Assembly: GCA_016186905.1 (NCBI GenBank)
Contig: JACPKS010000092.1
Span: forward strand, 1 to 33,300
Source: Deltaproteobacteria bacterium
GTDB lineage: Bacteria; Bdellovibrionota; UBA1018; UBA923
Direction: 5' to 3'
DNA length: 33,300 nt
Under the pieces are notes generated by a model, which was given only the letters and a program-made list of their open reading frames with translations, had not been told where the DNA came from and made no database searches. Numbering within the stretch: position 1 is the stretch's first letter; every line of letters starts with the position of its first letter. Both the position numbers and the translations under genes were made by a program. This document shows, piece by piece, positions 2 to 31,838 of this stretch.

Positions 2-778
2 AACGGCAGCATCTTTTTGGATGAGATCGGCGACATGCCGCCGATGCTGCAGGTGAAGATTCTGCGCGTGCTGCAGGAGCGGCGCTTCGAGCCCGTCGGC
101 GGAATGAAGACGCTCACCGCCGACGTGCGCATCATCGCGGCGACGAACAAGGATCTCGAGGAAGGCGTGCGGAACAAGTCGTTTCGCGAGGACTTGTTTT
201 ACAGACTCAATGTCATCCCGATTCATTTGCCCGCGTTAAGAGAGCGCAAAAGCGATATCCCGGCGCTCATCGGGCATTTCGCCGCGCGGTTCAACAGTGA
301 AAAGAAGCGAAGCGTGCGCTTCGACAATCAGGAAGTCATGGACCTGTTGCTGCGCTACGACTGGCCGGGAAATATCCGTGAACTCGAAAACCTCGTCGAG
401 CGCCTGGTGGTTTTCGCTTCGGATCAGGTCGTGCTTAAAGACCTTCCGTCGAAAATTTTCGAGCGCGTGGAACTTCAGGGCAGCCGCCCCGGCGCGCAGG
501 GGCGCTTCGGGTTCGCGTCGCAGACTTTAGCCCAAGCGCAAGCAGGCGATCTCGCTGTGGGTGGGGCCGCCGGGGGCGCGTTGCGTTTTCCGCGCGTGGC
601 ACTGCCCGAAGACGGTGTGGATCTGCGCGAGCTCATCAACGCGTTCGAGAACGATTTGCTTCTGCAGGCTTTGAGCCGCACGCGTGGAAACAAGAACAAG
701 GCTTCCGAGCTTTTACGCATGAACCGCACCACGCTCGTCGAAAAGCTTAAGAAAAAAAATCTGAATCTGGATCTTTAA
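2..778 (+). CDS. Sigma-54-dependent transcriptional activator, C-terminal part (5' end outside window)
   Basis: This is the 3' portion of an enhancer-binding protein that uses ATP hydrolysis to open sigma-54 RNA polymerase promoters. The reading frame is already open at base 2 and enters at the Walker B strand (FLDEIGDM), so the Walker A, GAFTGA and any receiver domain lie upstream of the window. Sensor I (AATN), both arginine-finger positions ([10 protein letters not shown]), LPALRER and the sensor II motif GNIRELEN are intact, so it should be an active ATPase. An Ala/Gly-rich linker follows, then a Fis-type helix-turn-helix ([17 protein letters not shown]) ending with EKLKKKNL. That C-terminal style is common in response-regulator-type activators, so a receiver domain upstream is likely but not seen. 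Its catalytic residues contrast with the degenerate homologue at 12557-13531. Confidence 0.93.
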
Positions 779-2565: not shown

Positions 2566-3026
2566 AGTCGCGCCCGCCGACACTGGCCGATCTCGTTCGC
2601 CTGTGCGCCGAGCTCAACAAGCGGGGGGCGAAATACATCGTCGTCGGCGGGATGGCGATGATCGAGAAGGGCTTCACTCGCGCGACGGAAGACATCGATC
2701 TGCTCGTGGATTCGTCCGTGGCGAACGTCGCTAAGGTGCGAGACGCGCTGCTCACTCTTCCTGATAAAGCGGCTGCCGACCTTGCGCCGTCCGACGTGGA
2801 CGAGTTCGCCGTCGTCCGGATCGCGGACGAACTTGTAGTTGATCTGCTGAAGGAGGCTTGCGGGGTTTCATTTGCCGAAGCTTCAGCTTCGGTTGAGCTG
2901 GTGGAAATCGAAGGAATCAAAATCCCGTTTCCCAACGACGAGATGCTCTTGAAAATGAAGCAGGGCGTGCGCGAAAAAGACGTCATCGACCGCAAGTTTC
3001 TGCTGGAAAAAATGAAGAAGGCTTAA
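2526..3026 (+). CDS. Nucleotidyltransferase-fold protein (AbiEii/MNT-like)
   Basis: A 166-residue protein with the hallmarks of the DNA polymerase beta-like nucleotidyltransferase fold: VVGGMAMIEKG at about residues 38-48, followed by RATEDIDLLVD, in which the DxD pair would bind metal. Such proteins transfer nucleotides to small molecules, tRNA or protein and include AbiEii-type toxins and MNT antitoxins. No ATG exists in frame before the GG motif, so translation must begin at the TTG at 2526 or a later CTG near 2584; the TTG start gives the 40-base overlap with the preceding small gene. The stop is four bases into the convergent AmmeMemoRadiSam gene. Which of the pair would be the toxic component cannot be told from the sequence. 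Confidence 0.82.
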   Translation: MVAQDDGKKPEELESRPPTLADLVRLCAELNKRGAKYIVVGGMAMIEKGFTRATEDIDLLVDSSVANVAKVRDALLTLPDKAAADLAPSDVDEFAVVRIADELVVDLLKEACGVSFAEASASVELVEIEGIKIPFPNDEMLLKMKQGVREKDVIDRKFLLEKMKKA

Positions 3027-5527
3027 ATCTCCACGGACTGCCGCTTCGCGCCCCAGTGCCCTGGCTGGTTTTGGAAGTGGCCGGAGATTTTGTGGTGGCA
3101 TTTCGCGCAGCAGCCGTCTTTGACGGCGTACTCGCCAAGCCGGTACCAGTCGCGTTCGATCACGCGAGCGCCGCATGACGGGCAGTAGGTGCTCGAACCC
3201 GCGGGGTCGTGCACGTTGCCCGTGTACACGTAACGCAGGCCGTTTTTAAGCGCGATCTCGCGGGCCCGCGTGAGGGTTTCGGAGGGCGTGGCCGGCCGAT
3301 CGACGAGTTTGTAGTCGGGGTGGAACGCGGTGAAGTGCAGGGGCACTTCAGGGCCGACGTGGTCGCGAAGCCACTTCGTCATGGCGTCGGTTTCTTCGGG
3401 GCTGTCGTTGGCGCCGGGGATGAGAAGTGTGGTGATTTCGAGCCACACGTTCGTGTGCTTGGCGACGTATTCGAGCGTGTCGAGGACGGGTTGAAGGTGG
3501 GCCATGGAATAGTGCCTGTAGAAGTCTTCGGTGAAGCCCTTCAAGTCGACGTTGGCGGCGTCCATCGCGGCGTAAAACTCGGGCCGTGCCTGCGCGGTGA
3601 TGTAGCCCGCGGTGACCGCCACGGGATGCAGCCCGAGCTTTCGGCACTCGATCGCGGTGTCGATGGCGTATTCCGCGAAAATCACGGGATCGTTGTACGT
3701 GAAGGCGACACTTGAGCAGCCGTGGTCTTTGGCCGCGCGGGCGATTCGCTCGGGCGAGGCGGCGGCCGCCAGCCGGTCGTCGGAGCGGGCCTTGCTGATG
3801 TCCCAGTTCTGGCAGAACTTGCAGCCGAGATTGCAGCCGGCCGTGCCGAACGAAAGCACCGACGTGCCGGGGTAGAAATGATTGAGCGGTTTTTTCTCGA
3901 TGGGATCGATGCAAAAGCCGCTCGAGCGCCCGTAGGTCGTAAGCGCGATCCCGTTTTCCGTTCCGACACGCACGTAGCAGAAGCCCGGCTGGCCAGGCTT
4001 GAGAGTGCATCCGCGCGGGCAGAGGTCGCAGCGGAAGCGGCCGTCCTTGGCTTTGTGCCACCATTTTCCGGGATGGAGCTCGGGGGGCGATTCCGCGATC
4101 TTCCGCACCGGAAAGCGGAAAACCGTCAAGGGATCGTCCGGCTTGATTCCCGCCTTTTTCGTCACGGCCAGAAGCTGGTCTTCCACGGTTTCGATTCCCT
4201 CGATGCCAGGAAGCAGCGTGGCCTGGCGCCATCCGGATTTTACGATCACGCCATAGGTAGCCGGGTCGAGCAGCGAGAGATCGCTCACGCGCTCGGGTTT
4301 TTCGAGCAGGGCGATTTCGATGGAAAGACCGGCCAGCTCTTGCAAGGTCACCGGCGAAAAACGCGGATCCTGGGTCGCCGAGCTCACGGCGCAGTCGGCG
4401 ATCTCCTCGGGAAGCGTGTCATACAGCCGCGCATGCCTTCCGATGCAGCCACGCAAGGCCTTTTGGCCGCCGGCGCTCTTCGTCCAAAGCGTCACGAACA
4501 CTCCGCGCGCGAGATGCGCGTCTTTGGCTTCGCACGGCTCAGTAGTGGCGTTTGGTGTGGCGCTTGGCGCGGCATCAGCGGTGGCGTCGGGGGCGGGCGC
4601 AGCTTTGTTGAGGTGTTTTCGGATGGCTTCGCGGGCCGAATCCAGAAGTTTGCGGTGAAGGCCGGGCGCGGAGCGGTTCTCGCGGTCGGCGCTTTCGTCA
4701 GGGATCATTCGTGAAGGCGTGCCCTCCGCGTGAAGAATCGCGATAAGATACCCCACGCCGAACGGTCCTTCGTAAGAGAGAACACGCGTGCCGCTGGCGG
4801 AAAAACCAGTCGCCGCCGCCGCGATCTCGACGGAGTCCACGACGTCTTCCGCGGCGAGATCGCGAAGAGCGGGGTCGATTGAAACCGCCGCATCAAAGCG
4901 TCCGGCCGCCAGATTTTCCGAGAACGCGCGATCGAATTTCTTCGCTTCGGGGTGGTATCCCGAAGGCGCGTCGGGTGTCAGGCGGTGGCTCATGTCGCCC
5001 GAAGCGAGAATCGCCCAGCGTTCGCCCGCGCGGCGGGCGGCATCGGCGATCGCGCGGCCCATCGCGCGGCACTCCTCGTGCTTGGGCGAGTAGGGAAACG
5101 AAACGACGACCGTGCGTCCGTTCCAGCCCGCGTTAGCGAGGAACCACATCGGCACCATCGCGCCGTGGTCGAGCGCGCCCGCGCGAAGGGGTTCGATCGC
5201 GATGCCGCCGCCGCCGCGGGCGGATTGAAAGATCAAATCGCGCGCTTTCGCGTCGTTGGGCGCGCGCACGCCGATCCAGGGGCAGCCGAACTGCCTGAAA
5301 TCCCCGGAGAGCTCTTTTCCGTCCATGACCCCGAAGGCGGACTCCAGGCGTGGCGCGTGCGGGGAAAGCACGATGATGACGTCTGGCCGCGCCGCTACGA
5401 GGTGCGCTGCCGCTTCTCGCATGGCTTCCGAGGAGCGGCGGACAAGGCGCGCTCGCCGGCCCGCGATCTCCGGGATGACGATCGGGGCGTGGCACATCAA
5501 GACGGTTGTGGCGATGCCGGGTTTCAT
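3023..5527 (-). CDS. Triple-fusion AmmeMemoRadiSam protein (Memo + AMMECR1 + radical SAM)
   Basis: One 834-residue chain carries all three components usually encoded separately. Residues about 8-268 are a Memo/LigB-type extradiol-dioxygenase-like domain with His residues at CHAP (13), SPHAP (57), LDHG (121) and DMSH (181). Residues about 290-480 are an AMMECR1 domain with the diagnostic LRGCIG (358-363), interrupted near its N-terminus by an Ala/Pro/Thr linker. Residues about 485-834 are a PflA-related radical SAM domain. It has a CxxCxxxC cluster at 500-507, the 4Fe-4S motif CNLGCKFC (565-572), and C-terminal CPSC and CCAKC pairs that may bind metal. The modified substrate is unknown for this system. 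I chose the ATG at 5527, 13 bases after mlaD; a TTG at 5584 would extend it by 19 residues into mlaD. It is the last gene of the lipoprotein-mlaEFD unit. Confidence 0.93.
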   Translation of the reverse strand: MKPGIATTVLMCHAPIVIPEIAGRRARLVRRSSEAMREAAAHLVAARPDVIIVLSPHAPRLESAFGVMDGKELSGDFRQFGCPWIGVRAPNDAKARDLIFQSARGGGGIAIEPLRAGALDHGAMVPMWFLANAGWNGRTVVVSFPYSPKHEECRAMGRAIADAARRAGERWAILASGDMSHRLTPDAPSGYHPEAKKFDRAFSENLAAGRFDAAVSIDPALRDLAAEDVVDSVEIAAAATGFSASGTRVLSYEGPFGVGYLIAILHAEGTPSRMIPDESADRENRSAPGLHRKLLDSAREAIRKHLNKAAPAPDATADAAPSATPNATTEPCEAKDAHLARGVFVTLWTKSAGGQKALRGCIGRHARLYDTLPEEIADCAVSSATQDPRFSPVTLQELAGLSIEIALLEKPERVSDLSLLDPATYGVIVKSGWRQATLLPGIEGIETVEDQLLAVTKKAGIKPDDPLTVFRFPVRKIAESPPELHPGKWWHKAKDGRFRCDLCPRGCTLKPGQPGFCYVRVGTENGIALTTYGRSSGFCIDPIEKKPLNHFYPGTSVLSFGTAGCNLGCKFCQNWDISKARSDDRLAAAASPERIARAAKDHGCSSVAFTYNDPVIFAEYAIDTAIECRKLGLHPVAVTAGYITAQARPEFYAAMDAANVDLKGFTEDFYRHYSMAHLQPVLDTLEYVAKHTNVWLEITTLLIPGANDSPEETDAMTKWLRDHVGPEVPLHFTAFHPDYKLVDRPATPSETLTRAREIALKNGLRYVYTGNVHDPAGSSTYCPSCGARVIERDWYRLGEYAVKDGCCAKCHHKISGHFQNQPGHWGAKRQSVEI

Positions 5528-5540
5528 ATCCTCGGAAAAG

Positions 5541-6350
5541 TCACTTCTTTTCAGCCTTAGCCGCTTCTTCCCTCGAATCCTCAACGCTCTTCCTCACGAA
5601 ATACTTCAACACCTTGTTTCGGTTCGCGCCGCCGAGAAGCGCTTTGAGGTCATCGTACAACGAAGGATCGTTGATGAGCGCGCCCAGCGTTCCGTCCCCG
5701 CGATCGATTTTCGCCATGATCGACTTCATCGACGTCATCGAGGCGTAAAAATCCTGTATCTTCGCCGGCAATGCCTGGGTCGCGCTGTTCACGTTCGAGG
5801 AAAAACCGGTGATGTTTCGAAAAAACGTTTCGGCGCGCGACTCGCGGTTGAAGCTCGCCACGATTCCCTCGATGTGCGTGAGCGAGGATTTGAGCTGCGC
5901 GAGAACCTCGTCGGCGTTATTCAAGTAATCCCGTAAATCCTTCGGCAGCTGGCTCTTGAGCAGCGCGCCGGGCTCCGCGACGGGGAGCGTGGGATTTCCC
6001 ATGCTGACGACGAGATAGCGGTCGCCCAGCACTCCCTGAGTCTGGATGCTCACCGTGCTGTCTTCGCGCACGGCCTTATGGTAGCTCTTGCGAATCGAAA
6101 AGCGGATATCGATCTGGTTGGTCTCGGGCGCGAACCTGATCTGGTCGACCTGGCCCACGCGAACGCCCGCGATTTTCACGGGAGCGCCTTCCACGACGCC
6201 TTCGACTTGTCCGATGCGCGCGTGAAACGAGATGTCGCGCGAGAAGATCGACTTTCCGCCGCCGAGCGTGAGGATGACAAGCATCACGAGCGCCGCGCCG
6301 AGCGCCACGAAGATGCCGACTTTGATTTCCACCTCAAGCGAGCGATTCAT
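5541..6350 (-). CDS. mlaD: MlaD-family (MCE domain) lipid transport protein
   Basis: A 269-residue MCE protein, the membrane-anchored periplasmic substrate-binding part of an Mla-type phospholipid transporter. A single N-terminal membrane helix (about residues 10-30, VGIFVALGAALVMLVILTL) is followed by the MCE domain (about 35-120) with GVVEGAPVKIAGVRVGQV and GVLGDRYLVV. The C-terminal 140 residues are helical and end in a lysine-rich tail, longer than in enteric MlaD. The ATG overlaps the mlaF stop as ATGA (6347-6350), indicating translational coupling. It forms the transporter core with MlaE and MlaF. No mlaC or mlaB is nearby. The gene could equally be labelled a generic MCE-family protein. 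Confidence 0.93.
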   Translation of the reverse strand: MNRSLEVEIKVGIFVALGAALVMLVILTLGGGKSIFSRDISFHARIGQVEGVVEGAPVKIAGVRVGQVDQIRFAPETNQIDIRFSIRKSYHKAVREDSTVSIQTQGVLGDRYLVVSMGNPTLPVAEPGALLKSQLPKDLRDYLNNADEVLAQLKSSLTHIEGIVASFNRESRAETFFRNITGFSSNVNSATQALPAKIQDFYASMTSMKSIMAKIDRGDGTLGALINDPSLYDDLKALLGGANRNKVLKYFVRKSVEDSREEAAKAEKK

Positions 6351-8657: not shown

Positions 8658-9257
8658 TTAGACCTGAAGTCTGCCGTCCACGATTCGAAATGTTCGGAAG
8701 CCCTTTGACGTGAGTAATCGCACGCCCTCTCCCTCAAAAAGGTTCTTCGTGATGTAGTGCCGTACGTTGAGCAGGTCAGTACCCCAGCGCACGACGCGCG
8801 TGTAGGCGAGGCCGTCCCAGAAACGGCCGGTCTTATGTCCTTTTTTTGCCTTCATGACGAGGGCCGCGATTCTTCCGGTGATCATTCGCATGAACCCCTG
8901 AAAGTCCTTTCGAGTTTTCGGCTGAATGACGAGATGAATGTGGTTTCCAACGTTGGCTTTTTCAAGGATTTTGACGCCGAATCGTTCTTGTGCGCGTCTC
9001 AGCACGCGATCGACGTGGCTCTTGTTGTTTTCGGTCAGAAACGACCAGTTTCCGCGCGCGCGACTTGAACGTAAAACGATATGGAGCGGACGTTTCGGAT
9101 CGACCGGGCGCGCGATTTTTCGTTTTCCTTTGCGCAAGCTTCCACCGAATTCCAATTCGACGCCGGATAGATTCGGAAACCTGCGCTTGGTGAAAAGGTT
9201 CAGCTGCTGGCGGGTCACTGCGCGCTCCTCCTCGCGGCTATATTGATAAATTTTCAT
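8658..9257 (-). CDS. REP-associated tyrosine transposase (Y1/HUH family), copy A
   Basis: A protein of about 199 residues of the TnpA-REP/IS200-like Y1 family, which cuts and joins single-stranded DNA at hairpin repeats. The HUH motif is seen as GNHIHLVI, and a conserved Tyr sits in RHYITKNLFEGEG, matching the usual YIxxNP position. The N-terminal GKRKIARP and RSSRARGNWSFL blocks are shared with copy B at 13692-14285; the two are clearly homologous (roughly half of residues identical by eye) but divergent. I chose the ATG at 9257; the frame extends to a GTG at 9329 but those residues look non-coding. A REP-like palindrome (9330-9382) lies just upstream. Confidence 0.88.
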   Translation of the reverse strand: MKIYQYSREEERAVTRQQLNLFTKRRFPNLSGVELEFGGSLRKGKRKIARPVDPKRPLHIVLRSSRARGNWSFLTENNKSHVDRVLRRAQERFGVKILEKANVGNHIHLVIQPKTRKDFQGFMRMITGRIAALVMKAKKGHKTGRFWDGLAYTRVVRWGTDLLNVRHYITKNLFEGEGVRLLTSKGFRTFRIVDGRLQV

Positions 9258-9329
9258 GCGTATTCCGTCAACTTGTTTTTCGATAATTTCAAAAATATAT
9301 TGAGGGGCAATGTAATAAGTATATCGCAC

Positions 9330-9382: not shown

Positions 9383-9665
9383 GAGGGACAACGCAAGCAC
9401 GGCCGTCGCGGACAGGAGCGAGCATGCCGTCACCACGGATGTGTGCGCCGGGAGTGGCACCTGCGCGAAGCGTCGGTCGCAGCGTAGCCGAAGCTAAATG
9501 GCGCTTTAGCGACCACCTCGTGACGGAAACTTCAAATTGGATATTCAACTTTCGGGCAATTCCTGCCCGTCAATGTTTTGACTCGCATGTCGCGACATCC
9601 GGTCAAAAGTCAGACGGTATTTAGTGCCTCGGAAAAAAAATCCTGTGATTTCGGACGGCAGATTT

Positions 9666-9680
9666 TGGCACGGCACATGC
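9666..9680 (+). promoter_or_regulatory. Candidate sigma-54 (-24/-12) promoter
   Basis: TGGCACG, four bases, then ATGC: one mismatch to the TGGCACG-N4-TTGC consensus, with the invariant GG and GC exactly ten bases apart. Transcription would start near 9691, just before the GGGAGG ribosome site (9695-9700) and the ATG at 9705. This position supports choosing 9705 as the start. The sequence match is direct; activity is inferred. Confidence 0.6.
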
Positions 9681-9704
9681 TCTTCCTACCTCTTGGGAGG
9701 CAGG

Positions 9705-12560
9705 ATGCCGAGAGCCACGGATGGCGCTCAATCACTAACGGTTTTGGCCGCGTTTCTCGCATCCGCGAGCGGAGCGTGGGCGGCGGGCCCCTCCGTTGGC
9801 GAAGCGCCGGCCGGCGTGAAGTTTCGACCCTACCAGACCCATTCCCACGTCGAACTGCCCTCCGATCCCCAGGTCGAATACTCCGTCGAGAAAATCGAGA
9901 AAGACGGAAAAATCGTCGCACTCAAGCTCATCGTGAAAAATCTCGCCGAGGTTCCGGTGGAAGCGCCGAGGCTGCCGGGCGCGGCCGATGCGCGCACCGA
10001 GTCGGTTCGCGTGACGAAGACGCGCGGCACTGATGGCGAGGACGTCGTTTACGAATTCGTGCTCACGAAAGACGCCGTTCGCTCGGGTGTTGAGTACTTC
10101 GATTACCGCACGAAGAGTCCGTCGAGTATTCAGCTGGATTATTGGTTACACGCCGCGGCGGGTGGCGCCGAAGGCGCACCTGCGGCGGCGAAAGCAGATG
10201 CCGGGATCGCCCTCGCAAAACCGGACAAATCCCCTGCAAAACTCTCGAAGAGAGGCAAGTCCGCTCCCAAGATTACCGCATCCCACCCATCCCACGCCAA
10301 ATCCACGACCACTACCGCTACGGCTGAAAAATCCGCCCTTACGGGCGTGCGCTCGGATGCCGACGATTCCTTTCCAGGTTGCGGAACTCCGCTCCGAAAG
10401 GGCCAGGACGTGTTCGCGCGCTTCAAGGTCTGGCACCGCCCGTACGATTACCGCGGGTTTTTCAAGCTTGAGATGCCTGACGCCGGTTACGCATACCCGT
10501 ACACCGCGGCTCAAGCCGAAAAGAGCGAAAAAGCTCCCGCGCGTCCCAAGGAGCTCGCGCACTACCGTCTCGCGCACAAGCTGTACCGCGAGCAGCAGTA
10601 CGCGCTGGCGCTCCGAACGATCGATTTTTTCGGGAAGAACTATCCCAAGAGCAAACTCGCGCGGGAAGTGGAGTTTCTCAAGGCGAACACGCTCATTCAG
10701 CTTTCGAAGTTCTTGAAGACCGACCGCTTTCGCGATCAGGCGGGCGAGACCTTCCGCAGGTTCCTCATCGAGGATTCCGGGTCGGCGAAGTCGCGCTCGG
10801 TGCTTGCGTATTATCTGCAGCTGTACATGGACGGCGGTCTGCCCGTGCGCGCGCTCGAATACGCGATGATGGGCGCCGAGGCGAAGGGTTACTCCAAGGA
10901 GGAGCTTACGCCGTGGATCTTTCGGCTCGCGCAGGCCGAAACGCTTTATGGCGTGGGCGAGCATGATCGGGCCGAGCGCGCATATCAAGCGGTGGTCGAC
11001 GCCGACAACGCGCTGACGCCCGACGCGGCTTTTCGGATCGGGGAGGTCTATCAGGCGCGCAAGCTTTGGGAGCGAGCCGCGATCACGTACGAGCGCGCGA
11101 TGAAGCGGTATCCGAAAGAGACTTCCCGTTTTCCGACGGCGCTTTTCAATCTCGCCGAATGTTATTTTCGGCTCGATCGCGACGCCGACGCGAAGAAAAC
11201 GTTCGCCGAATTCGTGGGGCGCTTTCCGCTTGAGCAGGCGACCTGGGGCGCGCGATTGCGGCTGGCCGAACTCGAGCAACTGGGGCTCGCCGCACCTGCG
11301 TCAGCGCAACACCAGCGCGTCGAGCGGCTTTACGAGGACGTCGTGAATTCGCGTCCTTACAGCCCAGGCGCGTTTCTCGCGCAAATCCGCATGGCGCAGT
11401 GCCATCGCGCCACCCAAAACGACACCAAGTACGACTTTTTCATGAACTTTTTCAAAGCCCGCGATCTGAAAAAAGCGGAGAGCGAAATCCTCGAGCCTTT
11501 CGAAGTCGAGATGGCGATGGATCTCGCGGAATCGCGATTTTTTCTGCAGGGAGAACGTTTCGAGCAGGCGTTTAAGCACGTGAATGCATTCCGGGAAAAG
11601 TACTCGAAGCTCCCCGTCGCCGAGCCGTTCAAGAAGGTCTTCGCTCGCGCGGCCGTGGGCCTGGTGGAAGAGCTCGTGCGCGAAGGAAAGGGCGCGGAAG
11701 CCCTTAAAGTCTCTAGTTTTTATGGGGATATCGTGCCAAAGCCCGAGCCCTTCGGCTACATGCTGGCGCTTGCGATGGCCGCGTTCAACGAAGGAAATCT
11801 TGAAGCCGTGTCGGCGCGAATCACGGTGTTGAAAGGCCTTTTGGCCAATGCGAGCGCCGGCGAGAAAGACGAATTTCACCTGCTCAATGCGCGCTTTCTG
11901 CGGCTGACTTCAGGCTCGGCGGAGGCCGTGATCGGCGAGCTAGGCCTGATCCGCGGCGATGGCCCGCTTTCTGCACTTAAGCTGGATGAGCTGGCGCAGG
12001 CCACGGCTGCGAAGAACGGCAAGAACGGCGCCAAGGAGGATTCAAACGCGTCCGTGCGCGAGGCCGAGGCTTTCGATTTTCAGCTCATCCGCGGTGATCT
12101 CTACAAGAAACTTCCTCTCGAGCGGCAAGTGGCGGTTCACGTGCGGCACATCGATAGTGTCTCGCGCCTGGGACGTCATTCAGACGTCGTGAAGTATGCC
12201 GACCAGGCGCTGCTCAAGTTCGGCGCGTACACGCAGTTCGCCAAAGAGCTCTTTCGGCTGAGAGAGCTCCGGGCGCAGGCGTTGTACGACTCCGGCGAAG
12301 ACAAGGCCGCCATCGAGGCTCTGGCCGAGCTGATCGAGGCGGACCCCGCGAATTTGCGTCGTTCCCAGTTCGAGTTCGAGAGGGGCAGAAGCCTCGTTCG
12401 GATCGGAAAGGGAAGCGAGGCTTTGGAAACGTTCCGAAAGCTGTCCCAGTCGGCGTCGGACGATGTGTGGAGGAAATCGGCGAAAGCGGAACTGGATCAG
12501 CTTCAATGGGAAGGCAAAATTTCAAATCAAACAACAGACGACAGGAGGTCGAACCAATGA
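9705..12560 (+). CDS. Secreted tetratricopeptide-repeat protein
   Basis: A 951-residue exported protein. The ATG at 9705 is preceded by GGGAGG and starts a signal peptide (hydrophobic SLTVLAAFLAS, cleavage near AWA|A at about 26). Residues about 45-135 form a beta-rich domain resembling AMIN-type periplasmic domains. A Lys/Ser/Thr/Ala-rich linker follows (about 150-220), then an extended array of degenerate TPR helices from about 290 to the end, including ALRTIDFFGKNYPKSKLA and AFRIGEVYQARKLWERAAI. TPR arrays of this type act as assembly scaffolds in the envelope. The stop overlaps the start of the degenerate activator gene as ATGA, so the two are cotranscribed. The frame extends to a GTG at 9624, but that would bypass the signal peptide and the promoter candidate. 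A role with the nearby flagellar genes is an inference from position. Confidence 0.88.
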   Translation: MPRATDGAQSLTVLAAFLASASGAWAAGPSVGEAPAGVKFRPYQTHSHVELPSDPQVEYSVEKIEKDGKIVALKLIVKNLAEVPVEAPRLPGAADARTESVRVTKTRGTDGEDVVYEFVLTKDAVRSGVEYFDYRTKSPSSIQLDYWLHAAAGGAEGAPAAAKADAGIALAKPDKSPAKLSKRGKSAPKITASHPSHAKSTTTTATAEKSALTGVRSDADDSFPGCGTPLRKGQDVFARFKVWHRPYDYRGFFKLEMPDAGYAYPYTAAQAEKSEKAPARPKELAHYRLAHKLYREQQYALALRTIDFFGKNYPKSKLAREVEFLKANTLIQLSKFLKTDRFRDQAGETFRRFLIEDSGSAKSRSVLAYYLQLYMDGGLPVRALEYAMMGAEAKGYSKEELTPWIFRLAQAETLYGVGEHDRAERAYQAVVDADNALTPDAAFRIGEVYQARKLWERAAITYERAMKRYPKETSRFPTALFNLAECYFRLDRDADAKKTFAEFVGRFPLEQATWGARLRLAELEQLGLAAPASAQHQRVERLYEDVVNSRPYSPGAFLAQIRMAQCHRATQNDTKYDFFMNFFKARDLKKAESEILEPFEVEMAMDLAESRFFLQGERFEQAFKHVNAFREKYSKLPVAEPFKKVFARAAVGLVEELVREGKGAEALKVSSFYGDIVPKPEPFGYMLALAMAAFNEGNLEAVSARITVLKGLLANASAGEKDEFHLLNARFLRLTSGSAEAVIGELGLIRGDGPLSALKLDELAQATAAKNGKNGAKEDSNASVREAEAFDFQLIRGDLYKKLPLERQVAVHVRHIDSVSRLGRHSDVVKYADQALLKFGAYTQFAKELFRLRELRAQALYDSGEDKAAIEALAELIEADPANLRRSQFEFERGRSLVRIGKGSEALETFRKLSQSASDDVWRKSAKAELDQLQWEGKISNQTTDDRRSNQ

Positions 12561-13531
12561 TGGACAATCAATCGCAGGATGGAAAGATGAAGGACATTTT
12601 CAGGCTGGCCGAGACGGCGGCGGGAACAAGGTCCGCGGTCCTGATTCAAGGCGAGAACGGCACGGGCAAGAACTTCATGGCGAAGTTCGTTCACGAGAGG
12701 AGCAACCGCGCGGCGGGACCGCTCGTGACCGTGAACTGCGCGCAGCAGCCCGAGATGCTGCTCGAAACCGAACTGTTCGGTTTTGAAAAAGGCGCCTTCG
12801 CGGGAACCGTGAGCGAGAAGCGCGGCAAGTTCGAGCTCGCCAACGGCGGAACGCTCATCCTCGACAACATCACCGAGCTCCCGGCAAGATTGCAGGCCAA
12901 GGTGCTCAAGGTGCTCGAGACCGGGCTTGCCGACCGCATCGGATCGAAGGGCGGTATTCCGGTGGACGTGCGGGTGATCGCGATCACGAGCAAGAACGCC
13001 GCCGAGTGCATCGCGCAGGGCAAGTTCGCCGAGGCGTTGTTCTACAAGATCAACACCACGCAGATCCTGCTGCCGCCGCTGCGTGAGCGGACGGCCGATC
13101 TCAAGGGCCTCGTCGCCACGCTCATGGGGCGGATCTCGGCGCGCACCGGCAAGCGCGTGTCGGGCATCTCGGAGGACGCGATCGGGAAACTCGCCACGCA
13201 TGAGTTCGCGGGAAACATCCGCGAGCTCGAAGGCGTGCTCGAGCGCGCGATGCTCAACGCGGCCGACAGCGTGGTCCGCATCGACGACGTCAACGTGGGC
13301 GACACCGCGGAGACGGCGCACCAGGGTGTTGGCGCGCACTCGCTCGACTGGGAACAGCAGGCCAAATGGGCGCCGGGACGCACGCTCGACGAGATCGAGC
13401 GCGCCGTGATCCTGCGCTCGCTCGGCCACAACAACGGCAACCGCACGCACACGGCGCGGGAGCTGGGCATCAGCATCAGGACGCTGCGTAATAAGCTCAA
13501 CCTGTACCGGAAGGCTGGGATCAGCGTTTAA
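12557..13531 (+). CDS. Degenerate sigma-54 activator-like AAA+ protein with flagellar-type Fis HTH
   Basis: A 324-residue protein with an AAA+ sigma-54-interaction domain (about 1-245) and a Fis-type helix-turn-helix (about 283-320, ELGISIRTLRNKLNLYR), a sequence typical of FlbD/FlrC-like flagellar regulators. There is no receiver domain. Several catalytic positions differ from active homologues. The Walker B pair is Asp103-Asn104 instead of Asp-Glu. The GAFTGA loop is GAFAGT (79-84). Sensor I is AITS instead of AATN. The two arginine-finger positions are Ala158 and Lys164 (FAEALFYKIN instead of [10 protein letters not shown]). Walker A GENGTGKN is near normal and GNIRELE is kept. The start at 12557 has AGGAGG eight bases upstream and overlaps the TPR stop. 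It may bind DNA and act as a partner, decoy or repressor of an active activator; function is inferred. Confidence 0.9.
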   Translation: MMDNQSQDGKMKDIFRLAETAAGTRSAVLIQGENGTGKNFMAKFVHERSNRAAGPLVTVNCAQQPEMLLETELFGFEKGAFAGTVSEKRGKFELANGGTLILDNITELPARLQAKVLKVLETGLADRIGSKGGIPVDVRVIAITSKNAAECIAQGKFAEALFYKINTTQILLPPLRERTADLKGLVATLMGRISARTGKRVSGISEDAIGKLATHEFAGNIRELEGVLERAMLNAADSVVRIDDVNVGDTAETAHQGVGAHSLDWEQQAKWAPGRTLDEIERAVILRSLGHNNGNRTHTARELGISIRTLRNKLNLYRKAGISV

Positions 13532-13691: not shown

Positions 13692-14285
13692 TCAGCATAG
13701 CAGCGTTCCGTCGCGGATTCGGAACACGCGCAATCCTGACGGCGTAGGAAGTTCGAGGCCCTCGCCTTGAAATAAATTCTTGGTGATGTAAATCCGGGCG
13801 TTGATGAAGTCGCGGCCCCACTCAAGGACACGCGAGAATGGGATAGAGTCCCAGAACTTCCCATCAGCCTTCCTTGAAACCATCGCCCGGCCTTTCTTTG
13901 CGCCGGTCACTTCAAACGCGATCTTTCCTGAGATCAAGCGGATAAACGCTTTGTAGGCTTCGTGCGTGCGGGCTTTCAGCACGAAATGGATGTGATTGCC
14001 GACGTTCGCCCTGTCGTAGACGCGAACGCCGAACCTCTCGCCGGCGCGAATCGCGTCTTCGACGATCCGGCGGTTTCCCGGATTGAGCAGGGACCACGCG
14101 CCGCGCGCGCGACTCGAACGCATTACGACGTGCATCGCGCGCTTGATCGCGATCGGCCGCGCGATTTTGCGCTTGCCGCGCGTCGGCTTGCCGCCGAACT
14201 CGAGCGAGGGTTTCCCGAATAAGTCCGGTTGCCTCGCTCGCGAGGCGGATTTTGGTATTGGCTTCAAGGAAATCGTCCGCTTCAT
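13692..14285 (-). CDS. REP-associated tyrosine transposase (Y1/HUH family), copy B
   Basis: A protein of about 197 residues in the same Y1/HUH family as copy A at 8658-9257. It has the HxH motif in GNHIHFVL and the Tyr in RIYITKNLFQGEG. Shared blocks include LEFGGKPTRGKRKIARP and RSSRARGAWSLL. The divergence from copy A shows that the two are separate family members, not a recent duplication. I chose the ATG at 14285; the frame runs to 14414, but that upstream part is AT-rich and lacks family similarity. Both copies point the same way and bracket the TPR/activator pair. It terminates toward the bidirectional terminator at 13541-13606. No matching terminal repeats were found around it. Confidence 0.88.
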   Translation of the reverse strand: MKRTISLKPIPKSASRARQPDLFGKPSLEFGGKPTRGKRKIARPIAIKRAMHVVMRSSRARGAWSLLNPGNRRIVEDAIRAGERFGVRVYDRANVGNHIHFVLKARTHEAYKAFIRLISGKIAFEVTGAKKGRAMVSRKADGKFWDSIPFSRVLEWGRDFINARIYITKNLFQGEGLELPTPSGLRVFRIRDGTLLC

Positions 14286-14457
14286 AGCGTTTGTTTTATT
14301 CGGGATGGCAAGATTAATCAAGCGTTTAATTTGAATAAATACCATTGCCCTAATGTTTAATCGACGGTTAACTGTCACAGTTCCCGTTAAGGCAACGGCT
14401 ACGTTTGGGACCAAAATTTGTCGGATCTGAGCCTGGACGGTTCAAAAATCACTGCTG

Positions 14458-14601: not shown

Positions 14602-14633
14602 CGGGCGCCGGCGTGGGCGCGCGCAGGTGCCCG
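14602..14633 (+). promoter_or_regulatory. Stem-loop 2 in the flgB leader
   Basis: CGGGCGCC (14602-14609) and GGTGCCCG (14626-14633) pair over eight bases with one wobble and a 16-base GC-rich loop. It sits about 50 bases before the flgB ribosome site. The role is unknown. Confidence 0.35.
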
Positions 14634-14700
14634 GCCCGCTCCTTGCTTTCTCCAGAGGAAGAGTAAAAGCAGTTCGAGTTCCATGGAGGGAACTTAACCC

Positions 14701-15114
14701 GTGGCGGACACCCTATTCGACTCGACGGTTGGCGGGCTCAACGCGGTGATGAATTTCCGCCTCGCCAACCAGAACGTCATCTCGAGCAACATCGCCAACG
14801 CCGACACGCCAGGCTATCACGCCCAAAAAATGGAATTCGAAACCGCGCTTCGCGACGCGCTGGGCGTCTCGGATCGAATGCCGATGGAGGCAAGCGACCC
14901 AGAGCACATCATCAAAGCCGATCCCGGCCACATCGACCCGGTCATCTACGACAATCCGAGCGGCGTGATCAACCTCGACGGCAACACGGTCGACCGGGCG
15001 TCCGAAATGGTTTCGATGGCCGAAAACGAATTGCAATACAACGCCGCGACCGAGCTTCTGCGCAGAAAACTCGGCGTTCTGAAGTACGCGATCAACGAAG
15101 GAGGCGGCAGGTAA
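14701..15114 (+). CDS. flgB: Flagellar basal-body rod protein FlgB
   Basis: A 137-residue proximal rod subunit exported by the flagellar type III system. The N-terminal rod/hook motif NVISSNIANADTPGYHAQKMEFE (about residues 24-46) is diagnostic, and the C-terminal half ends with the helical segment that packs in the rod (SMAENELQYNAATELLRRKL). Translation begins at a GTG with GGAGG ten bases upstream. The stop codon overlaps the flgC start by one base (TAATG). It is the first gene of the basal-body operon. Length is normal for the family. Confidence 0.96.
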   Translation: MADTLFDSTVGGLNAVMNFRLANQNVISSNIANADTPGYHAQKMEFETALRDALGVSDRMPMEASDPEHIIKADPGHIDPVIYDNPSGVINLDGNTVDRASEMVSMAENELQYNAATELLRRKLGVLKYAINEGGGR

Positions 15115-27637: not shown

Positions 27638-30600
27638 CTACAGTCCCAGCCGTTTGTTCAGCCTCGAGCGAAGCTCCTCGGCCTCCTTGCTTGAGAGCGC
27701 CGTACCGTCGAAGTCTTCCATGCTGCGGTACCAGGCCTTCATGTCGGCTTCTTCGCTCATGGGAACGTAGGTGTCCGTCGCGGGGTCGTAGTAGTGCGTG
27801 GGATCGTAATTTTTCATTTCCTCGGCCGTCAGTACTTTCAGGCCGGGTTGCAGCGGTTTCATTACCATGCGAATTTCTTCATGCGCTTCGAAGTAAGGAA
27901 CGAGCTTGCGAAGCGGCCCCGGCTTGAAAAGTGCGGCCGCCCGCTCGGCAAGCGGCCCTTTGCCGAAAAGCTTGGTCATGCGACCGGCTTCGTACAGCAG
28001 CATCATTTCTTCCTCGGAAAGCGACTGCACGAGCTCCGCCGTCGATTGCCCGTTCTTCGACGCGAGTTCCATTTTCTCGATGAGCGTTCCGAGTTTCGCG
28101 AGGCGGTCGCGGATGTAAAGCACGCGCATGTCGCGCATCGTGTTCACGAACTCGCCCCAGCGTTTCGAGAACTGCAGGATCTTTCCGCTCTTGACCGCGC
28201 CGATCAGCGCTTTGGGATACATCACGAAAAGCGTGAGATTCGGACTTTTCACGAAACCTTCGGCCCCGGAAGGATCGATCGGAATGAATGGTTCGCCCTC
28301 TTTCACGAGCGAACTGCCCTTGAGCGGCGACTCGTCGCCGAGCTTCTTCATCGCTTTCGTCAGCCGCACCTTCCAGTAATCGATCGCCTGCTCGAGTTCC
28401 GGAATGTTTTCGACGTGGTTTGCCGGCAGAAGCTTTTCGACTTTCCCACGCAATGCCGCGACCACTTCCTCCATCGTGAAATTCTGGTATTTCGGCAGCC
28501 AGCGCCCCATGCCGTCCCAGAATTCGCCGGCTTTCGCCGACGTGCCTCTCACGAAACCTTTCTCGGCGACGAGCTCGTTGTACGATTTCACGGCCTTGAA
28601 TTGCTTGGGCGGCTTGCCGAACGTTCGCGCCTCAAGCCCCAGCGTTTTGGCGCTTTTCATGACGGTAAGTCCGACGCCGCGGCGGAGGTCTTTTACGATG
28701 GCCCTGCCGAAGACAAAGTCGAGCGTCGTCCAAAGCGGCTCGGTCCATTGCCCGAACTTAAGCATGGATTTTTCCTCGCCAATCTTTTCGCGTGAGGCGA
28801 TTTGCTTCAGGTCTCCCATCATCGTGCGCGTATCGCCGAGATAGGAGTTCGCGACCGATTCCTGAAATTTGATCTGCGTGGGTTTCTCGAAGTAATTGAT
28901 GCTCCAGCGCGTATATGTTCCCGCGATGATGATCGGAAAGGCGGCGATGTTGATGAAGGTGAGAATCGGCGTGACCACCGCGAGAATTCCGGCGGAAAGC
29001 AGGGGCATGACGAAAAACGAAATCGCCATCAGCACGAGGAAAAACCACATCATCGCGTGGCTGAAAAGCACGTCTTCAAGGAACGCTTCCTTGGGCGTGC
29101 GCGAGAGCTTGCGGAGGTTTTCCTCGTATTTGTCGTACTGTCCTTTTTCATTGATCGCCGCGCGCGTGGCCGAGGAAGCCCGGAACATCTGCTTGAAATT
29201 CTCGTCCGGGAAGGCCGCCGCGGTTTTCGTGTCGGCCTGGCAGAAAACCTCGAGCTTGTCGTCTTTTCGGACCGCCGCGATGGCATCGCCGATAATCGCG
29301 AGAGCTTTCGTTTTGTTCACCGTGTACGTGCTGGGATCGTACGCGTCGGCCAGATAATGCATCGTCGAGCGTTCGTCCTCGCTCGCGGGCAGGTTCGAGG
29401 CTCGCCACTGCCGCTGCAGAAGCGCGCTCTGCGAGAACGACAGCCCGAATTTCGCCTGCGCGTAGGTCATGTGCTCGAAAAGATACGGCATGAGCCGGGC
29501 GCTTTTCGTGAGCGCGGCGGTGCGGACGGAATTCGGATCGAAGTTGTACGTCCGCAGGTGCATCACCGCGAAGATCGACTCGACGGCCTCGATCTTGCCC
29601 ATCGGCTGGTCGGAATCGTCGCCGATGAGCTCATATTCCGGTGGCTTCCGGGGTTTTTTCGAGGTGCCTGTGCCCAGAAGATCGTACAAGCCCGGAGTTT
29701 CGCCGCACTCCTTGGCCTCGGCTTCTTCCTTGGCTTTCTCGATTTCCTCCGGCGTTTGAAGCGCGAGCATCGGCGGGTGCCGTCGTTCGAGCGGCTTTTC
29801 CCTGGCCACGAGTTTGCCGTTTTCCACGACGACGATCTTATTGTCGGCTGTACTCGGGTCGAATTTCGGAACGAGCTTCGGCGGGCGCGCGAGCTGGTCT
29901 TTCTTGGCCGGAATGATCTTAATGGTTTCTTCCAGCATGCTGTAATCTTTGCCGTGCTTTTTCTTGTATTCCGCGTAGAGCTCTTTCTGGATCGCGTACG
30001 CTTTTTCCGCTGCCAGGCGTCCGAGCGGGGTGTTGTCGGGCGTCAACACGAGATCAGGAGTTTTCGCGACTTCCTTGCCGAACTCCTCGCCCAGCTCCTT
30101 GAAAAACCGGCTGATGACGTCGGCGACCTCTTTCTGCTTGTTCATGACGTGCTCGAGCGCCGCGTACTCGAAGGAGTTCATCATCCCCATGAAATAGAGC
30201 TCGAGATCCTCGGGCGTGATCGGCGCAAGCGTCATTCCGGCCACGAGCTTTCCGCCGACGAGCGCTTTCACTTTGGAAGCCTCGGTCCAGCGCGCGGTCT
30301 TGTAGTCCATTCCGGCTTTCTCGAAGAAAGCGACTTCATATGCGGCTGGAATCGCGGGCTCAGCCGCCTCGAAGATCTGCCGCGTTTTTTCCTCGCGCCG
30401 CGCGTACGCGGTCACGGCTTTGGATTTCGGATCCTCGAGTTTTTGCGCGACGGGAAGGAACGCGTCGAACTGCGCGCTTATCCACGCGTCTTTCGTTTTC
30501 GCGAGCTCGCTCACGATGCGCTCATCCATCGGGTCGCGGTTTTTCACCCCGATTTTCTTTCCGTCGCTCGTGAGCGGCAAGGTCGCGATCATCCAGATCT

Positions 30601-31798
30601 GCTCGCGCACGGCCTGCGAGCGCCGCTCAAACGCGTTTTCAGCCATCCGCCGCGCGACCTGCGCCGGCGCGGATTCGTCGCGCGGCATCGTCGCCGAGAG
30701 CAAAACGTCCTGCGCGGTATATTGCCAGTCGTCCTGCTCGTTGGCGGCGACGTAGCCGGCGGCCTGCAGATACCAATCCGCGATGCCCGCCGTGCTGGCG
30801 CCGGCCATGAACGCCTTGAAGTTCGGTTCCGCGCCCAGCGCGGCTTTCAGAACCGTCGCGTAAAGCAGCTTGTCGCCCAGCGGGTGGTTCATCGACTTTT
30901 CGGCGAATTTGGGCGTCAGCTTGCGGATTTCAGCAAAACGATCGGTGGCGACAAGCTCCTTGTAGAGCGGCGAGCTTGCGATCTTCTTGTCGGCCCCCGG
31001 CCGGAACGAAAGCAGCTCGGGCCCGCAGTACTTGACCTTCTCGTCGGCGGGATCGAAATTCTGGCTTGTGAGCCTTCGAACCGCCCAGCGGTTCACGAAT
31101 CCTTCGCGCAAGACCGAATGCTGCAGGAACTTCGCGTACTCGTGCTCGTTCTTTGGCGACGAGACGGCGGCGTCCTCGGCCAGCACGCGCTCCTGATCGC
31201 TTAAGCCGAATTCGAGCTCGCTTGCGCTCTTGTGCTGGACGTTGAACGGATACCTCGCGAACACGGGATAAGCGGCGTTTTTGGCGAGCACGAGATTGAG
31301 CGGGCCAAGTGCTTCGAACGAGAAATTTCCGAGGTCGGTTCCCGCCGCGTGCGCGCCGGCGGCGTAAAGCACGTGCGCGCGGCTTAAGCTGTTGAGGTAC
31401 CGGCCGGAAACGGTTTGCAGAAGTTTCGCGCCGTCTTGCATCCGCGTGGGCGATTTCGCCATGTCGGCTGAAAGTTTCTTCAAATCGGCCGCGAGGATCC
31501 GCATTTGAGTGACGGCTTGTCTTAGGTTCGGGTCTTTGAAAATGAGGATTTTTCCGGGGGATGTCTCGGGATAAGGCTCGGCGGTTTTGGCGAAGCGCTT
31601 GACCTGCCGCTCGCCGCATTTGAGAAGACTTTCGATCTTTCCCATCTTGATGGAATAGGGGTCGGGTGTTTCGGCGCCCATCGCGAAAAGCGCCAAAATC
31701 GCGATCGCGCCGAGCTTGCGCGAAAACGCCGAGAGGCCTCCCCGGGGGGAAGCCTCTCGTTTTACGTTTTCGCTTTTTCGGAAGAGCGCGCTACCCAT
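27638..31798 (-). CDS. Large envelope protein of unknown function (1386 residues)
   Basis: I do not recognise a family. The N-terminus has a long basic leader, then a hydrophobic segment (LGAIAILALFAMG, about 29-41) that may be a signal peptide or anchor. Residues about 45-900 are mostly helical, Lys/Ala/Glu-rich, with a Pro- and Lys-rich region near 640-725. A strongly hydrophobic block at about 912-968 (MMWFFLVLMAISFFVMPLL and ILAVVTPILTFINIAAF among others) could form two or three membrane helices. The last 400 residues are again soluble and charged. The ATG at 31798 has GGAG nine bases upstream; a GTG lies directly before it. It starts 40 bases after the lipoprotein stop, so the two form a probable operon. 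There are no recognised enzyme motifs. Confidence 0.82.
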   Translation of the reverse strand: MGSALFRKSENVKREASPRGGLSAFSRKLGAIAILALFAMGAETPDPYSIKMGKIESLLKCGERQVKRFAKTAEPYPETSPGKILIFKDPNLRQAVTQMRILAADLKKLSADMAKSPTRMQDGAKLLQTVSGRYLNSLSRAHVLYAAGAHAAGTDLGNFSFEALGPLNLVLAKNAAYPVFARYPFNVQHKSASELEFGLSDQERVLAEDAAVSSPKNEHEYAKFLQHSVLREGFVNRWAVRRLTSQNFDPADEKVKYCGPELLSFRPGADKKIASSPLYKELVATDRFAEIRKLTPKFAEKSMNHPLGDKLLYATVLKAALGAEPNFKAFMAGASTAGIADWYLQAAGYVAANEQDDWQYTAQDVLLSATMPRDESAPAQVARRMAENAFERRSQAVREQIWMIATLPLTSDGKKIGVKNRDPMDERIVSELAKTKDAWISAQFDAFLPVAQKLEDPKSKAVTAYARREEKTRQIFEAAEPAIPAAYEVAFFEKAGMDYKTARWTEASKVKALVGGKLVAGMTLAPITPEDLELYFMGMMNSFEYAALEHVMNKQKEVADVISRFFKELGEEFGKEVAKTPDLVLTPDNTPLGRLAAEKAYAIQKELYAEYKKKHGKDYSMLEETIKIIPAKKDQLARPPKLVPKFDPSTADNKIVVVENGKLVAREKPLERRHPPMLALQTPEEIEKAKEEAEAKECGETPGLYDLLGTGTSKKPRKPPEYELIGDDSDQPMGKIEAVESIFAVMHLRTYNFDPNSVRTAALTKSARLMPYLFEHMTYAQAKFGLSFSQSALLQRQWRASNLPASEDERSTMHYLADAYDPSTYTVNKTKALAIIGDAIAAVRKDDKLEVFCQADTKTAAAFPDENFKQMFRASSATRAAINEKGQYDKYEENLRKLSRTPKEAFLEDVLFSHAMMWFFLVLMAISFFVMPLLSAGILAVVTPILTFINIAAFPIIIAGTYTRWSINYFEKPTQIKFQESVANSYLGDTRTMMGDLKQIASREKIGEEKSMLKFGQWTEPLWTTLDFVFGRAIVKDLRRGVGLTVMKSAKTLGLEARTFGKPPKQFKAVKSYNELVAEKGFVRGTSAKAGEFWDGMGRWLPKYQNFTMEEVVAALRGKVEKLLPANHVENIPELEQAIDYWKVRLTKAMKKLGDESPLKGSSLVKEGEPFIPIDPSGAEGFVKSPNLTLFVMYPKALIGAVKSGKILQFSKRWGEFVNTMRDMRVLYIRDRLAKLGTLIEKMELASKNGQSTAELVQSLSEEEMMLLYEAGRMTKLFGKGPLAERAAALFKPGPLRKLVPYFEAHEEIRMVMKPLQPGLKVLTAEEMKNYDPTHYYDPATDTYVPMSEEADMKAWYRSMEDFDGTALSSKEAEELRSRLNKRLGL

Positions 31799-31838
31799 CA
31801 CGTGCGACTCCGATCCTGGTGGAAGAGGAGTGTTCGCG

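Follow-up and report, generated by a model that had tools for sequence, protein, structure and literature searches.

The window analysed here, the whole of one 33300-base contig from a 2.86-Mb draft genome (G000, family f1), carries ahead of a flagellar operon the gene for a receiver-less FlbD-like bacterial enhancer-binding protein (bEBP) in which the parts needed for ATP hydrolysis and sigma-54 contact were lost as a set and the DNA-binding helix-turn-helix (HTH) was kept. At the corresponding position relatives encode a working version, and the activator thus appears to have been converted to a different kind of regulator. Orthology, synteny, the concerted lineage-specific loss, purifying selection and the retained HTH follow from comparison of sequences within the order. 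From these we infer that the dead protein acts as a DNA-binding modulator, probably dampening flagellar promoters (most likely a negative effect). That the protein is such a modulator, with activation left to a FleQ-like protein of the same locus, is the explanation considered reasonably probable. The gene and its diagnostic segments are as follows.

12557-13531, plus strand: catalytically degenerate, receiver-less FlbD-like AAA+/Fis-type HTH protein of 324 aa (translation, Pfam, NCBIfam, alignments and AlphaFold2)
12650-12673, plus strand: Walker A region GENGTGKN at residues 32-39, with the P-loop retained and the Glu39 that canonically follows the Lys missing
12791-12808, plus strand: GAFAGT replacing GAFTGA, residues 79-84 (Thr82 to Ala, Ala84 to Thr); in 4/4 f1 proteins and 0/31 canonical orthologues
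12860-12868, plus strand: Walker B, reading Leu-Asp-Asn at residues 102-104; Asn stands in for Glu104 (Asp in sister genera)
13025-13054, plus strand: arginine-finger segment FAEALFYKIN, residues 157-166; Arg158 to Ala, Asp160 to Ala, Arg164 to Lys
13448-13498, plus strand: Fis-type HTH HTARELGISIRTLRNKL, residues 298-314, near-identical throughout the order

Orthologues were gathered from 55 genomes of the order. Family f1 is represented by four genomes from three genera, and the other three orthologues are 69-75% identical to the window protein; the 31 canonical orthologues come from families f2, f3, f4, and f6 (about 45-53% identity). The canonical proteins carry GAFTGA (or GSFTGA), LDE, REDL..RLN, and an intact Sensor I Asn. 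The window protein reads GENGTGKN, EKGAFAGT, LILDNITE, AITSKN, GKFAEALFYKIN (with Ala158 and Lys164), GNIRELE, and ELGISIRTLRNKL. All four f1 proteins have GAFAGT, lack the Walker B Glu, and carry Ala or Ser for Arg158, Ala, Ser or Thr for Asp160, and Lys for Arg164. Of the 145 alignment columns with at least 95% conservation among the canonical orthologues, 27 are altered in every f1 protein, including all of the lost elements. The P-loop GE[NT]GTGK (4/4), the sensor II region GN[IL]RELE, and the HTH were retained, so that of the features of a functional bEBP the Walker A P-loop GxxGxGK is present throughout f1 and the GAFTGA Thr, the Walker B Asp-Glu, and the two arginine fingers are missing. 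Since canonical syntenic orthologues exist in four other families, the loss is lineage-specific.

The initial annotation of this gene had proposed that sigma-54 and ATPase function was lost and the HTH kept, and comparison with the 31 canonical orthologues supports this. GAFAGT and the replacement of both arginine fingers recurred in all four f1 genomes, and the Walker A motif, GNIRELE, and DNA-binding helix were found to remain, as it had stated. Its Walker B Asp-Asn stands as a loss of Glu common to f1, but the exact LDN occurs in G000 only and the other three genomes have LDD. Likewise, AITS for AATN is present in the window protein but limited to G000 (AITN or AISN in the other three), a smaller Sensor I change than claimed. 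Because Sensor I is altered partly and variably, the count of four independent elements was too high. The missing receiver was also correct, none being found by Pfam search, but canonical orthologues (about 315-330 aa) have none either; its absence, judged from the alignments, goes back to the ancestor of the order and is uninformative about function loss. Orthologues with canonical residues, which that annotation would have taken as evidence against itself, were found outside f1; within f1 the changes are fixed in 4/4 genomes and under purifying selection, so they mark a lineage-specific conversion and the claim stands. Three features described below went unmentioned in that annotation: the loss by a different route in a second family, the tie between the FleQ-like activator and the sigma-54 promoter, and the new promoter-like site ahead of flgB.

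By descent the protein belongs to the sigma-54 activators. The Pfam domains are Sigma54_activat (188 bits), AAA_lid_14, and HTH_8, that is, the AAA+ domain, lid, and Fis-type HTH of a bEBP. FlbD (NF050807) was the top NCBIfam model (322.8 bits over residues 7-324), below the 750-bit cut-off, which leaves the protein outside the FlbD equivalog; a canonical orthologue from another family, likewise receiver-less, scored 434.9 bits. The position between a tetratricopeptide repeat (TPR) gene and flgB and the HTH HTA[RK]xLGISIRTLRNK place the protein in the FlbD-like clade of the order. Paralogues in the same genome are all distant, the next match having 40% identity (E 4e-67). A viral scan gave no match for the protein, and a contig search with the f1 family alignment returned solely paralogues from other phyla, the pattern being that of an unspecific P-loop. 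The AlphaFold2 model (predicted local distance difference test 81, predicted template modelling score 0.63) has an AAA+ bEBP fold; its nearest folds are NtrC1 (also as the Walker B mutant), FleQ, and ZraR, and the matches extend to FlrC and PspF.

A decaying pseudogene could account for the many lost conserved residues and for flgB having moved off with its own promoter candidate. Against decay, four genomes carry an intact frame of equal length, it begins with an ATG overlapping the stop codon of the preceding TPR gene (open reading frame [ORF] end at 12560), and the strong Shine-Dalgarno sequence before it, GACAGGAGGTC, is kept in 4/4 f1 members. In the closest f1 pair, the ratio of nonsynonymous to synonymous substitution rates was about 0.1 overall, with zero amino-acid change in the HTH, and purifying selection was seen over three genera. 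Conserved changes across f1 together with purifying selection indicate conversion and not decay, which makes a pseudogene extremely improbable. Sequencing error was rejected, since the same changes occur in intact frames under purifying selection in all four f1 genomes.

The expected consequences can be read against PspF, in which E108, N64, and the neighbouring subunit's R162 and D164 form one active-site network and T86 of GAFTGA contacts the sigma-54 closed complex (PMC4132715). By motif alignment, f1 proteins have lost the equivalents of E108, R162, D164, R168, and T86 and kept that of N64 (Asn60). With these residues lost, stand-alone activation of sigma-54 by f1 proteins is very unlikely, and binding of ATP is possible. 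A still-working sigma-54 activator with unusual residues would be compatible with the retained fold and P-loop, with Asp for Glu in three of the four f1 genomes, and with a Lys that could partly mimic Arg. Single PspF mutants are already defective, E108D being inactive on duplex DNA and T86A unable to engage the closed complex (PMC4132715), whereas f1 proteins have jointly lost the GAFTGA Thr, the catalytic Glu, both Arg, and the Asp partner of a set conserved in 31 orthologues. Retained activity is therefore very improbable. In PspF, mixtures of wild-type and T86A subunits are insufficient for activation, and mixed dimers of wild-type and E108 variants are active on pre-opened DNA (PMC4132715). 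From this mutant behaviour the f1 protein is predicted to be non-activating and possibly a poisoning subunit.

The remaining elements of the locus that bear on its control are as follows.

2-778, plus strand: receiver-less sigma-54 activator of canonical type with FleQ-type HTH; the contig end truncates it to its C-terminal part
9569-9582, plus strand: dyad GTCAATGTTTTGAC, which agrees with the published FleQ box in its outer letters
9666-9681, plus strand: sigma-54-type promoter TGGCACGGCACATGCT before the TPR-flbD operon; the -24 box is intact, and 4/4 f1 genomes lack the first T of TTGC at -12
9705-12560, plus strand: TPR protein gene, first of the TPR-flbD operon; the ORF opens at 9624 and the probable start is the ATG at 9705, behind the promoter
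14632-14649, plus strand: sigma-54-like promoter candidate for flgB, CGGCCCGCTCCTTGCTTT; YGGCCYG-N4-TTGCTTT in 4/4 f1 genomes
14701-15114, plus strand: flgB, heading the flagellar operon flgB-flgC-fliE-fliF-fliG-fliH-fliI-fliJ-(MotE-like)-fliK-flgD-flgE

The gene order MlaD-MlaF-MlaE-lipoprotein (minus strand) followed by TPR, FlbD-like, and flgB-flgC-fliE-fliF-fliG... (plus strand) is shared throughout the order, which supports the emphasis laid initially on the position before the flagellar operon. In most other families flgB lies close behind the FlbD-like gene; in f1 the two are separated. In the window the gap spans about 1.2 kb and holds a transposase-like gene, in G002 it is about 2.1 kb, and in G003 (2.6 kb) and G001 (4.4 kb) the sequence left before the contig end contains no flgB. 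Two REP/Y1-type transposase-like genes, both on the minus strand, flank the TPR-flbD operon (8658-9329 and 13692-14414). The first has a Pfam match; the second, which separates flbD from flgB, has none and was judged by eye to resemble the first.

The FleQ-like protein (HTH NRTTLVEKL[RK]K) was read in 51/55 genomes, and most genomes of the order have the two activators at this one locus. In f1, it is intact wherever readable, with loop and Walker B present (three complete copies and one cut by the contig end). Within f2, f4, and f6, wherever the upstream region was readable and the FleQ-like protein carries the GAFTGA (or GSFTGA) loop, TGGCAY-N5-TTGCT lies directly upstream of the TPR-flbD(-flgB) operon (26/26 genomes). 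It was present in 0/11 genomes with a loop-less FleQ-like protein and readable upstream region (ten f5, one f3); chance expectation was about 0.001 per region. As the FleQ-like loop tracks the operon promoter across the order, the FleQ-like protein is likely its driver. Two apparent promoter-less exceptions, G011 and G028, were dismissed because in both the promoter lies slightly further downstream within the open frame, a limit of the scan window; G028 yielded no FleQ-like gene at the threshold used and was counted neither way. In f1, the promoter persists in 4/4 genomes with a -12 box of [ACG]TGCT instead of TTGCT. Many other sigma-54 sites genome-wide keep TTGC, and the -12 change before the TPR gene may accompany the altered activator.

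Upstream of the f1 promoter, by 83-94 bp, lies a dyad GTCAA-N4-TTGAC (one mismatch in G002); dyad and promoter at that spacing occur once in three f1 genomes, including that of the window, and twice in G001. The published FleQ boxes are GTCAAT-NN-ATTGAC (PMC10723142) and GTCaNTAAAtTGAC (PMC6120874). RpoN and FliA were found in every genome searched, and sigma-54 sites are equally frequent genome-wide in f1 and elsewhere, so sigma-54 itself has not been lost.

These promoter data bear on the idea that the f1 protein has become a regulator of sigma-70 type, activating or repressing, for which ATP must bind but need not be hydrolysed, as reported for Rhodobacter capsulatus NtrC; Caulobacter NtrC and VpsR would be similar cases. 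GAFTGA-less bEBPs active at sigma-70 promoters are documented (PMC10274813; PMC12421884), the P-loop and sensor II are kept, and family f5 retains flagellar genes and HTH although neither of its activators has GAFTGA and its operon has no sigma-54 promoter. In f1, however, the locus still looks sigma-54-dependent, since the operon promoter was kept and a second candidate was gained before flgB, and no sigma-70 promoter tied to the f1 protein was identified. A sigma-70 role is thus judged unlikely, though of the alternatives it deserves the most serious consideration. It is improbable that the protein is instead a non-catalytic subunit of mixed rings, tuning the intact FleQ-like activator as a pseudo-enzyme partner. 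Such a role would suit the encoding of both activators at one locus in most genomes, the predicted intact AAA+ fold, the altered -12 box in all four f1 genomes, and the activity of wild-type/E108-variant PspF dimers on pre-opened DNA (PMC4132715). Loops of the T86A type nevertheless impair activation in mixed rings (PMC4132715), and loss of the interface residues Arg158, Asp160, and Arg164 should weaken contact.

In the favoured explanation, an ancestral receiver-less FlbD-like activator has lost the parts for ATP hydrolysis and sigma-54 contact together in f1, with the P-loop, lid, and DNA-binding helix staying under purifying selection. The dead protein, unable alone to open sigma-54 promoters, would work from its own DNA sites, occupying flagellar control sites or poisoning mixed rings with no activation, and the intact FleQ-like activator at the window start would drive sigma-54 transcription of the locus. 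Several observations weigh against this explanation. The likely role of the FleQ-like protein as driver comes from covariation over few independent events, which agree in direction; a Fisher test on the genome counts overstates the association for that reason. Binding sites of the canonical FlbD-like protein were not found in the order by the upstream-motif search: no shared enhancer motif for its HTH appeared upstream of the operon, where canonical genomes show only the sigma-54 promoter clearly above shuffled background. The sampled flagellar clusters contain one clear sigma-54 promoter only, and no recurrent ones were found elsewhere in the clusters of f2, f4, f6, and f5.

Loss at this locus is not confined to f1. 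In f5, the syntenic FlbD-like protein (nine genomes read) has the GAFTGA loop deleted or rewritten and the Walker B Asp gone; the arginine fingers are mostly kept (G010 lacks the first and G029 has Lys at the second), and the HTH always is. The f5 FleQ-like protein is GAFTGA-less in 13/13 genomes, and the operon sigma-54 promoter is gone wherever readable in f5 and in G005 (f3). The FleQ-like protein of G005 also lacks the loop and that of G049 (f2) has it degraded (GV-AGA); the loop losses of f5, f3, and G049 were seen at loci L278, L279, L280, L304, and L318-L328. Common to f1 and f5 are an aromatic residue at position 44 and the loss of Glu39. The two families separate in the flagellar/Mla tree and in the larger tree of RpoB and RpoC with flagellar/Mla proteins, where f5 joins canonical f3, f4, and f6 on a well-supported branch. 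A clade of f1 and f5 was not rejected by the approximately unbiased test (p 0.29 for flagellar/Mla; p 0.12 for RpoB, RpoC, and flagellar/Mla). The grouping of f5 with canonical families and the different elements lost, set against this non-rejection, leave independent losses in f1 and f5 favoured, not proven. In G026 (f2), the FlbD-like protein (L056:9133-10212) is partly degenerate (DAFAGA, AERGSGKD, ENVRELK) and its close relatives in G044 and G028 are canonical, possibly a third loss in progress. The alignments and trees thus point to at least two losses (G026 and the rest) and probably three. Two further FlbD-like frames are split into two overlapping ORFs, L186:3413-4478 (G043) and L187:3771-4743 (G045); a run of N explains the latter, and the former is a frameshift or assembly error.

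Among known systems, Caulobacter FlbD, which both represses and activates from ftr sites (PMC3930126), resembles the f1 protein in HTH type, in the AAA+/HTH alignment underlying the NCBIfam match, and as a flagellar regulator; the f1 protein differs in having no receiver, in its lost ATPase and sigma-54 elements, and in scoring far below the equivalog cut-off. GAFTGA-less NtrC of Rhodobacter capsulatus and Caulobacter and VpsR are bEBP relatives that function after losing sigma-54 contact, but they have receivers, control nitrogen or biofilm genes, and have the loop deleted or lacking, whereas the f1 protein has a loop of unchanged length and also lacks the Walker B Glu and the two arginine fingers; the f5 orthologues, with their loop deletion, resemble the NtrC cases. 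Pseudomonas FleQ and FlrA are flagellar AAA+ regulators independent of receiver phosphorylation that repress or activate by context, and at this locus the HTH of the window-start activator and the dyad at the promoter recall FleQ. Unlike the f1 protein, whose HTH is FlbD-type and not FleQ-type, FleQ has retained ATPase activity and a receiver, if a degenerate one. PspF resembles the f1 protein in size, fold, and lack of a receiver and supplies a mutational map for the lost residues, but it is a catalytically intact sigma-54 activator. That bEBPs without GAFTGA act at sigma-70 promoters is already known. The literature searched contains no description of a FlbD-type protein without receiver that lacks GAFTGA, the Walker B Glu, and both fingers throughout a family beside canonical syntenic orthologues; as that literature was incomplete, the negative is weak.

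Elsewhere in the window, on the minus strand, 3023-5584 is an 853-aa frame fusing LigB-like, AMMECR1, and radical SAM parts, the three AmmeMemoRadiSam parts, and 27638-31801, adjoining flgE, encodes a 1387-aa protein without a Pfam match.

A strong bEBP family match is usually taken to mean an activator; here the match is confident, yet, from the residues present, activation is almost certainly impossible. A broader proposal is that non-activating conversion of FleQ-like and FlbD-like proteins was repeated across lineages, the dead f1 protein being a pseudo-enzyme partner of a live FleQ-like protein at a promoter with a re-tuned -12 box. We regard this as rather doubtful, but if true it would make the order a natural series of sigma-54 control lost or rewired. 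Canonical, GAFTGA-less, and ATPase-less versions share one syntenic place, with the promoter present, altered, or gone, and these variants and promoter states at a single locus offer a natural series on how sigma-54 circuits may be rewired and what role a bEBP may take after loss of its motor.

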